From Gemmatimonadota bacterium (GTDB lineage Bacteria > Gemmatimonadota > Gemmatimonadetes > Longimicrobiales > Gaopeijiaceae), in NCBI GenBank assembly GCA_003559555.1, contig PWLA01000244.1, positions 1-40,803 on the forward strand: a DNA stretch of 40,803 nucleotides. Reading direction: 5' to 3'. Below, piece after piece: positions 15,663 through 20,767 of this stretch. Every line of letters begins with the position of its first letter. The first letter of the stretch is position 1. The notes under the pieces were generated by a model. That model was not told where the DNA came from and ran no database searches. It saw nothing but the letters and a program-made list of their open reading frames with translations. Both the position numbers and the translations under genes were made by a program.

Positions 15663-15750
15663 GGTGGGGGGAGGCGAGGGGGTGTCGGGGGGGATGCGAG
15701 GGGGGACGTGGGGGGGACGTGAGGGGCGAGGTGAAGGGGGAAGTTCGCCG
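15663..15750 (+). repeat. G-run tract with G-quadruplex potential
   Basis: At least seven runs of four to seven G lie within about 90 bases, separated by short spacers such as TGTC, ATGCGA and ACGT. The ACGTG between G-runs occurs twice. This satisfies the classical G4 pattern several times over. No gene is supported here; the open frames have biased composition only. Confidence 0.7.
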
Positions 15751-17999: not shown

Positions 18000-19190
18000 T
18001 CAGTCCAGGGGGCTCATCCCAACGTACTTGAGACCGCTGCCCGTGTTGAAGAGTACCACCTCGTCGTCGGCGCGGATCACTCCCTCTTCCAGGAGCACCG
18101 GCACCGCCGCCGCCACCGCACCACCCTCCGGAGCCGCGAAGACCCCGGTGGTCTCGCCGATGCGGGACACCCACCGGGCCATCTGGTGATCGGCCACCGC
18201 CACCGCCGCACCTCCCGACGCCCTGAGGGCATCGAGGATCAGAAAGTCGCCCACGGCGGAGGGCACCCGCAGTCCCGAGGCATAGGTCGTTGCTCCTTCG
18301 TAATACTCCGCTGACCCCGCTCCGGATTCGAAGGCCCGGACGATGGGTGCGCAGCCCCGGGCCTGCACCGCCATCATTCTCGGACGTTCCGAGCCGATCC
18401 AGCCCATCGCCTCCATCTCGTCGAAGGCTTTCCACATCCCGATGAGGCCGGTCCCACCTCCGGTGGGATAGACGATCACGTCGGGGAGGCGTCGCCCCAG
18501 CTGCTCGAAGATCTCATACCCCATGGTCTTCTTCCCTTCGACCCGGTATGGCTCCTTGAGCGTGGAGAGATCCCACCATCCAAACTCCCGGACGCCTTCC
18601 TTTACCGCCTTACCGCAGTCGGTGATGAGTCCGTCCAGAAGGTGCAGGTGCGCACCCATGGCCCGGATCTCCTCCAGAATGGGTTGCGGGGTGTCCGCCG
18701 GCACCACCACGTGGACCGCCATGTCGGCGGCTGCACCATACGCGGCGGCGGCCCCCCCGGCGTTCCCGGCCGAGGGAAGGGCCAGCACATCAGCCCCCAG
18801 CTCCAGGGCCCGGGACACCGCCAACGCCATCCCCCGGGCCTTGAAGGTACCGGTGGGATTCTGGGATTCGTCCTTGACCCAGCACCGGGCCACTCCAAGC
18901 TCGCCTGCCAGCCGAGGCGCATCCAACAGCGGGGTCCAACCCTCTCCCAGCGTGATGCGGTGGGCGGGATCGCGCACCGGAAGCACTTCGGCGTACCGCC
19001 AGAGGTCCGCCCGCCGACCGACGAGGTCGTCGGGGGTGAAGGCACCGGCCAGCGACTCCAGGTCGTAGCGGGCGAAGAGGGGCTTGCCTGCCGGAGACAG
19101 GCCCTGAAGAGTTTCCGACTCCAGGCGCTCCCCGGTCTCCGTGCACTCCAGGTGCGTCGCGCCCCTCAAGGGGGAAGAAGATTCGCTCAT
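18000..19190 (-). CDS. thrC: Threonine synthase
   Basis: A 396-residue fold-type II PLP enzyme that converts O-phosphohomoserine to threonine and phosphate. It has the start ATHLECTETGERL and LSPAGKPLFARYDL common in short bacterial and archaeal-type threonine synthases, LGEGWTPLLDAPRLA, and the PLP lysine in NPTGTFKARG (Lys117). It also has SAGNAGGAAAAYGAAA, the phosphate-binding loop PTGGGTGLIG, and LFNTGSGLKY at the end. The ATG at 19190 has GGAGG about ten bases upstream. No other threonine-pathway gene is adjacent. A 26-bp-period repeat array lies 38-185 bases upstream and may include its promoter. Confidence 0.9.
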   Translation of the reverse strand: MSESSSPLRGATHLECTETGERLESETLQGLSPAGKPLFARYDLESLAGAFTPDDLVGRRADLWRYAEVLPVRDPAHRITLGEGWTPLLDAPRLAGELGVARCWVKDESQNPTGTFKARGMALAVSRALELGADVLALPSAGNAGGAAAAYGAAADMAVHVVVPADTPQPILEEIRAMGAHLHLLDGLITDCGKAVKEGVREFGWWDLSTLKEPYRVEGKKTMGYEIFEQLGRRLPDVIVYPTGGGTGLIGMWKAFDEMEAMGWIGSERPRMMAVQARGCAPIVRAFESGAGSAEYYEGATTYASGLRVPSAVGDFLILDALRASGGAAVAVADHQMARWVSRIGETTGVFAAPEGGAVAAAVPVLLEEGVIRADDEVVLFNTGSGLKYVGMSPLD

Positions 19191-19223
19191 GCTGGCTGTG
19201 CCTCCGGAGGGCTGGGGTTCTCG

Positions 19224-19375
19224 TTTTCGGCTGGGGTCGGACGTGTCCCTTTTCGGCTACGGTCGGACGCTTTCGGGTCCGGCTGGGGTCGGAAGTGCCC
19301 CTTTCCGGCTACGGTCGGATGTTCTCGTTTCCGGCTCGGGTCGGAGGTAGCCATTCCCGGCCCGGCTCGGGAGCC
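19224..19375 (-). repeat. Exact 26-bp-period tandem array upstream of thrC
   Basis: The core CGGCTnnGGTCGGA starts at 19228, 19254, 19280, 19306 and 19332, always 26 bases apart. Twelve of its 14 positions are invariant in five copies; a sixth, diverged copy is at 19358. The two variable bases run GG, AC, GG, AC, CG, hinting at a 52-base higher unit. The linkers vary in sequence. Since 26 is not a multiple of three, coding selection does not explain it. There are no CRISPR-like unique spacers. Confidence 0.85.
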
Positions 19376-19412
19376 GGCGGAGACCGGGCGCCGGCCGGGC
19401 ACCAACAGGCGC

Positions 19413-19442
19413 CGGGTGCACGTCAAACGGGTGCACGTCAAA
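19413..19442 (+). repeat. Perfect tandem duplication of a 15-mer
   Basis: CGGGTGCACGTCAAA occurs twice, directly abutting (19413-19427 and 19428-19442). Each copy holds the palindrome GTGCAC, and on the minus strand a TTTGACGTG that looks like a -35 element. It lies between the CPBP gene stop (19551) and the 26-bp array. Nothing else is seen in the 360-base stretch from 19191 to 19550. Confidence 0.6.
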
Positions 19443-19550
19443 GAGAACCCTGCGGACCCCGGGTCTCAAGACCGGCTTCCAGGGGTGCGGATGGATCCAC
19501 CACCCCTCCCCCTCCGGTTCGCACCCCCACCTGGCCATGTCATGGGCCGC

Positions 19551-20504
19551 TCACCGAGGTCGGCTCCGGGGCGAAGGGCGCCCTCCCATTTCCGGCGGAC
19601 GGCCCAGCATCCAAAGCCCGATGGCCAGCATGATCAGCGCCAACGGCAGGAGTACCAGGGGGGGAGCCTCCTCGGTTCCCCGGGCGAGCTCCCGGGTAAG
19701 CGGATGGGCCACCATGGCCAGGATGGCGGCATTGTTCAGAAAGTGAAGGAGCATGGCCAGGGGGAGCGATCCACTGCAAACCACCACCCAGGCCAGAACC
19801 ATTCCCAGCCACGCCGTTGGCAGGATCCGGAAACCGGTCTGAGGCGCCAGGTGGAAGACACCGAAGATGAGCCCGGTTACCGCTACAGCCCCCAGGACCG
19901 GCAGCCCCCGACGCATCCCCGAGAGCAGCGCGCCCCGAAAGAGGACCTCCTCGGCGATGGCCGGGATCACGGCCACCATGAAGAGGAGCCAGAAGAAGCG
20001 CTGGGGCGACTCGGCGGTGAGCATCTCGGTCATGGCCTCCAGGAACTCCACCGGGACCGGAACCACCAGGCTCTGGAGCCAGGCCAGAAACCAGGCGATC
20101 TGTGTCCCGGCGGCCAGAAGCACCACGCCCCCCAGCGCCTGCCACCGATCCGGCCACTGCCAGGCGAAGGTGAGACGGATGTCGTATCCGCCCCAGAACA
20201 CGAAGAGGATGGGCGGTCCCGCCAGAAAGAGGAGCTGAGCCAGGACCAGGCCGGGCTCCCCCAGGAGGAGTTGGAGGGGGATCCCGCCCAGGAGGTAGAG
20301 GACCGCCACAACCAGCACGAGCCCCAGCACGGCTCCGGCACCCGGAACCTTGCCCTGGACCGGACCCTCAGCCGGCCACCCCGCGACGCCCGACTCCGGC
20401 CCCTGCCCCGGGGACCCGGTTGGCCTGGGGTGCCTTCGCCCCCGATCTCCATCGTCGCCACGGCCCTCCGGCTCCGGGCCGGACCTTCCCGACGCTGACC
20501 CCAT
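19551..20504 (-). CDS. CPBP-family intramembrane metalloprotease
   Basis: A 317-residue integral membrane protein of the CAAX-protease and bacteriocin-processing (Abi/Rce1) family. The catalytic motifs are visible: Glu-Glu and Arg in AIAEEVLFRGALLSG (about residue 185), FGVFHL (the second motif His) and LLHFLNNAA (about 254). About seven to eight membrane segments cover residues about 50-305. The N-terminal ~45 residues are polar, Gly- and Pro-rich and not conserved in kind. The ATG at 20504 has GAGGAGGAC just upstream; the longer frame to 20738 is not family-like and would overlap the divergent promoter of the sigma gene. Substrate unknown. Confidence 0.85.
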   Translation of the reverse strand: MGSASGRSGPEPEGRGDDGDRGRRHPRPTGSPGQGPESGVAGWPAEGPVQGKVPGAGAVLGLVLVVAVLYLLGGIPLQLLLGEPGLVLAQLLFLAGPPILFVFWGGYDIRLTFAWQWPDRWQALGGVVLLAAGTQIAWFLAWLQSLVVPVPVEFLEAMTEMLTAESPQRFFWLLFMVAVIPAIAEEVLFRGALLSGMRRGLPVLGAVAVTGLIFGVFHLAPQTGFRILPTAWLGMVLAWVVVCSGSLPLAMLLHFLNNAAILAMVAHPLTRELARGTEEAPPLVLLPLALIMLAIGLWMLGRPPEMGGRPSPRSRPR

Positions 20505-20767
20505 CGTCCTCCTCGCTGATTCTTCTGAGCGTCCGATCCCGACAGCCACCACCGACCTGAACAGCCGTTGAGAACGAGTCGGCTGAAACCCTAACCGGGT
20601 CCTCCTCTCCGAACAACGTTGATGTCTTGCCGGGCCCCACCCCTGTCTGCCATGCAACCTTCCGCGGGCCCGAAGCATCTCAAGGGTAGCAGAAGACTGC
20701 TGGAGGCCCTCTCGACGCCCGACCCGGGGAGGGCCCACGTGACCCGAAGCCCGAGTCGCAACCGCAA

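Follow-up and report, generated by a model that had tools for sequence, protein, structure and literature searches.

Directly upstream of the threonine synthase gene thrC, this Gemmatimonadota genome carries a short, evenly spaced array that is probably a small minisatellite, built by repeated tandem duplication in the thrC 5′ leader of this species or a close lineage. The array and its surroundings, in the 40,803-nt stretch of DNA analysed here (the window), comprise the following features.

18000 to 19190, minus strand: thrC, threonine synthase (NF006050, 568 bits against a cut-off of 303)
19217 to 19345: whole array, a 52-bp higher-order repeat of 2.5 copies (Tandem Repeats Finder, score 188)
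19228 to 19241, plus strand: core copy 1, type A, centre GG; 16-bp dyad at 19226-19241, TTCGGCTGGGGTCGGA
19254 to 19267, plus strand: core copy 2, type B, centre AC; dyad TTCGGCTACGGTCGGA
19280 to 19293, plus strand: core copy 3, type A, centre GG; dyad TCCGGCTGGGGTCGGA
19306 to 19319, plus strand: core copy 4, type B, centre AC; dyad TCCGGCTACGGTCGGA
19332 to 19345, plus strand: core copy 5, type A-like, centre CG; dyad TCCGGCTCGGGTCGGA
19358 to 19371, plus strand: degenerate sixth copy, in phase, CGGCCCGGCTCGGG
19413 to 19442, minus strand: separate exact 15-bp tandem duplication, CGGGTGCACGTCAAA twice, in the same leader
19440 to 19469, minus strand: promoter-like block TTGAG-N15/16-GTTCWC, conserved in position and sequence in 5 of 5 genus genomes; putative function
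19551 to 20738, minus strand: CPBP-type intramembrane protease, next gene upstream of thrC and on its strand

The core, CGGCTNNGGTCGGA, is found as an exact match five times on the plus strand, at 19228, 19254, 19280, 19306 and 19332, with a spacing of 26 bp throughout, and a sixth unit at 19358 keeps the same phase with three mismatches to the core. Both the five recurrences and the degenerate copy had been pointed out in a preliminary description of this DNA and are borne out. The same description spoke of alternating GG and AC at the variable pair. The order is in fact GG, AC, GG, AC and CG, such that the alternation holds for copies 1 to 4 and breaks at copy 5. With the copies placed in register, 15 of the 26 columns are invariant, namely all 12 core columns and 3 of the 14 others. 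Outside the core the copies fall into two types (copies 1, 3 and 5 versus copies 2 and 4), with 57-79% identity between copies of the same type and 21-57% between copies of different types. The better unit is therefore one of 52 bp with two related 26-bp halves, A and B, which is the pattern of a higher-order repeat. Because of this A-B structure, the GG/AC alternation needs no functional reason; it is a higher-order repeat of the kind typical of unequal crossing-over or slippage.

Tandem Repeats Finder gave the same picture, with a score of 188 at period 52 (2.5 copies, 81% matches) and 109 at period 26. The array is by a wide margin the strongest tandem repeat of the window, and the top arrays in 30 dinucleotide-preserving shuffles of the window scored only 39-73, so that head-to-tail units are present well above chance, as in a minisatellite. 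In a 682-kb sample of the rest of the genome (19% of the total) the top score was 114, and the period was divisible by three in 73 of the 88 arrays sampled, as expected of coding sequence. Elsewhere in the window, a G-rich degenerate tandem repeat with a period of about 11-23 occupies positions 15666-15741.

On the minus strand the CPBP-type protease gene is followed by a gap of 360 bases and then by thrC, which has a GGAGG ribosome-binding site 10 bases 5′ of its ATG (start codon at 19190). No classical sigma-70 site was detected by consensus scan, and the promoter-like block does not fit the classical -10 consensus. It is also kept in three genus genomes that lack thrC at this location, where a small downstream gene follows it directly, and we regard it as a candidate promoter of the lineage. 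The array sits between this block and the ribosome-binding site and start codon of thrC, and thus in the predicted mRNA leader. The exact 15-bp duplication adjoins the promoter-like block on its downstream side; its presence beside the array implies that the leader has been tandemly duplicated more than once. As to the gene itself, three of the five genus members (G001, G002 and G004) lack thrC in the interval that separates the CPBP gene and the small downstream gene. A diverged thrC (55%) lies elsewhere in G001, and G002 and G004 gave no good thrC match.

The nearest relative, G003, has a ThrC that is 89% identical, the same CPBP-thrC gene order, and both the promoter-like block and the start region. 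Its CPBP-thrC intergenic region contains no array, and the leader is much shorter. With both flanks syntenic between the two genomes, mis-assembly is an unlikely source of the array. Upstream of thrC in 29 relatives there was no tandem array with a score of at least 40. We also searched 121 family genomes, the present one included, for pairs of neighbouring cores 26 bp apart, allowing up to three mismatches. The other 120 yielded no array, and their isolated matches with two or three mismatches were no more numerous than those of a control pattern. A DNA similarity search of the relatives returned no match except a weak one, apparently coding. Two candidates for further arrays, at C136:7505 and in G056, were rejected as single copies. 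The presence of the array is therefore lineage-restricted, since it is absent from G003 and from the other genus and family members. No second array was found in its own genome either, and a dispersed repeat family was rejected, the array having no counterpart elsewhere in the genome. When the core-pair pattern was searched for in GTDB species contigs and viral contigs, periods of 24 and 30 predominated, which is what coding repeats would give. Period 26 was seen in 2 of the 164 genome matches listed and in none of 139 viral matches, and on the periods of these matches an array shared with other lineages was rejected.

Tandem duplication is the best-supported origin of the array because of its higher-order structure, its absence in relatives and the second, 15-bp duplication in the same leader. 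In this scheme a 26-bp duplication would have produced the A and B halves. Once these had diverged, unequal crossing-over or replication slippage would have copied the A-B pair in a step of 52 bp. Copying of the 52-bp pair would thus account for both the exact spacing and the GG/AC alternation. A likely consequence is a leader of ~250 nt versus ~65 nt in the relative, both lengths being estimates, and the effect on thrC expression would be modest at most. The structure of the array and its absence in relatives are directly shown; neutral drift as the only force behind it is inferred, and the core may additionally be kept as a protein-binding dyad. The earlier suggestion of a young tandem duplication is accordingly right about a lineage-specific expansion, as the 52-bp structure and the absence in relatives indicate, and overstates its youth, as the spacers have diverged.

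Short repeats upstream of genes have been described in other bacteria. For example, the leukotoxin promoter of Mannheimia haemolytica carries short head-to-tail repeats in this one species only, while the promoter proper is conserved genus-wide (PMC2697988). The thrC array resembles this case in that short repeats upstream of a gene occur in one species next to a promoter-like block conserved in the genus. The M. haemolytica repeats lie upstream of the core promoter, contain A-tracts in phase and differ in number from strain to strain (PMC2697988), whereas the thrC array lies downstream of the promoter-like block, has no A-tracts and consists of diverged copies. In Mycoplasma hyopneumoniae, intergenic tandem and palindromic repeats occur in 5′ regions, and an effect on expression has been suggested (PMC5179023). 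The thrC array is likewise intergenic and in a 5′ region; however, the M. hyopneumoniae repeats precede most transcriptional units (PMC5179023), as opposed to one outstanding array in the sampled genome here.

The core itself offers hints of selection. Extended by two bases to TCCGGCTnnGGTCGGA, it is an imperfect dyad with the variable pair at the dyad centre. Each copy has 4-6 Watson-Crick matches out of 8, plus G-T at another two or three positions. Three copies reach 5 or 6 matches, whereas about 4% of window positions reach at least 5 and fewer than 1% reach at least 6. Neutral duplication does not by itself explain 12 invariant core positions beside 11 variable positions among the 14 others (Fisher p 5e-5, for columns picked post hoc), and variability at the exact dyad centre is what a binding site would show. 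When the clustering of invariant columns was considered, a permutation gave p 0.04, random placement p 0.018 and a dyad-arm version p 0.002, again with a post hoc choice. With clustering p values from 0.04 to 0.002 and only five related copies, this invariance is suggestive; the constant core, with its variable dyad centre and spacers, hints at selection for binding sites, at modest significance.

The alternative that survives best is that the five 16-bp imperfect dyads form an operator array for a putative dimeric regulator, possibly binding cooperatively and serving, for instance, as a road-block on the downstream side of the thrC promoter. Tandem duplication would have come first, and selection would then have kept the cores. 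Plasmid iterons and direct-repeat operators are built in this manner, with a short conserved core, regular spacing and variable spacers, and the thrC array shares the regularly spaced conserved core and the variable spacers. It differs from them in that no replication or partition gene was recognised beside it, it is not conserved in relatives, and no known binding protein is associated with it. Besides the invariant core, the dyad matches that are rare among window positions and a score unmatched in the sampled 19% of the genome, the location between the promoter-like block and the start codon would suit such a role. There is also one further exact dyad, TCCGGCTCGGGTCGGA, at C25:181-196, which matches array copy 5 over 19 bp and lies between divergent genes, 14 bases upstream of a start codon; it is the single intergenic exact site elsewhere in the genome. 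However, the orthologous place in G003 has a different sequence, and a second operator at C25 is not supported. Single cores are not commoner in the genome than a reversed control pattern (58 versus 82), and dyads show only a slight excess (70 versus 53), with the array itself contributing five of the 70. Neither conservation at orthologous promoters nor a regulon was seen, no candidate regulator was found, and a search of titles and abstracts for a direct-repeat operator at thrC yielded nothing relevant. Spacing of 26 bp also amounts to a half-turn offset that places neighbouring sites on opposite faces of the helix, which is unusual for cooperative neighbours.

The cooperative binding array proposed in the preliminary description thus keeps in its favour an invariant imperfect dyad with a variable centre, which fits operators, and is weakened by the lack of a second array, of a single-site excess and of conservation at the C25 site. 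That description had itself named absence from relatives as the mark of neutral slippage, and by this rule the absence from the closest relative and from the other family genomes disfavours a binding array. Overall the operator array is an unlikely reading, if one worth keeping in mind. The narrower version, a newly born lineage-specific operator array in which five sites derive from one duplicated dyad, with cores held and spacers drifted, would be a rather long shot.

Very little probability attaches to the cores acting as RNA elements. In a plus-strand transcript such as an antisense RNA, each would fold into a small hairpin of 6 bp and a loop of four bases. In isolation the plus-strand core hairpins have energies of -4.1 to -8.8 kcal/mol, and imperfect positions of the DNA dyad form G-U pairs in them. 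Two of the hairpins carry a UACG loop, and the array on this strand has a z-score of -2.45. However, the best plus-strand fold pairs the units with one another instead of forming hairpins, no plus-strand gene lies beside the array, and Rfam gave no notable match. The thrC-sense strand, the expected transcript, shows no excess of structure over shuffles (z 0.17 and -0.27).

Equally hard to credit, if not more so, is a translated upstream ORF, possibly coupled to thrC translation. The preliminary description had held that the array is not coding, its period not being a multiple of three; this is not strictly valid, as the minus-strand frame at 19187-19441 is open across the array. The frame spans the whole leader, with 84 codons from a TTG start or 54 from an ATG, and its TGA overlaps the thrC ATG (ATGA). 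Its first codons, across the 15-bp duplication, are threonine-rich and read MTCTRLTCTR from the TTG at 19441, which is probably due to chance. Against translation, a period of 26 rotates the frame such that the repeats encode different peptides, there is no family match, the G003 leader is without the sequence, and long open frames often arise by chance at this G+C. No minus-strand terminator-like site for attenuation was found, and we think that the frame is not a gene. A riboswitch or threonine attenuator is not supported, given the lack of such a terminator-like site, of any Rfam match near threshold and of structure in the sense leader (z -0.27), and nor is a CRISPR array, given the unit size (core of 14-16 bp and spacers of 10-12 bp, against repeats of about 23-47 bp and unique spacers of about 21-72 bp) and the relatedness of same-type spacers.

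Most likely the thrC array is an ordinary lineage-specific minisatellite in a gene leader, for which a cis-regulatory role is only a possibility. Should it be neutral, it is a common kind of intergenic repeat and shows again that higher-order tandem duplication is enough to produce regular spacing and an alternation of letters. Binding of the cores would instead make it a case of a multi-site operator born by duplication before a housekeeping biosynthetic gene, and, were the array indeed a newborn operator, the locus would show such an array shortly after it arose.
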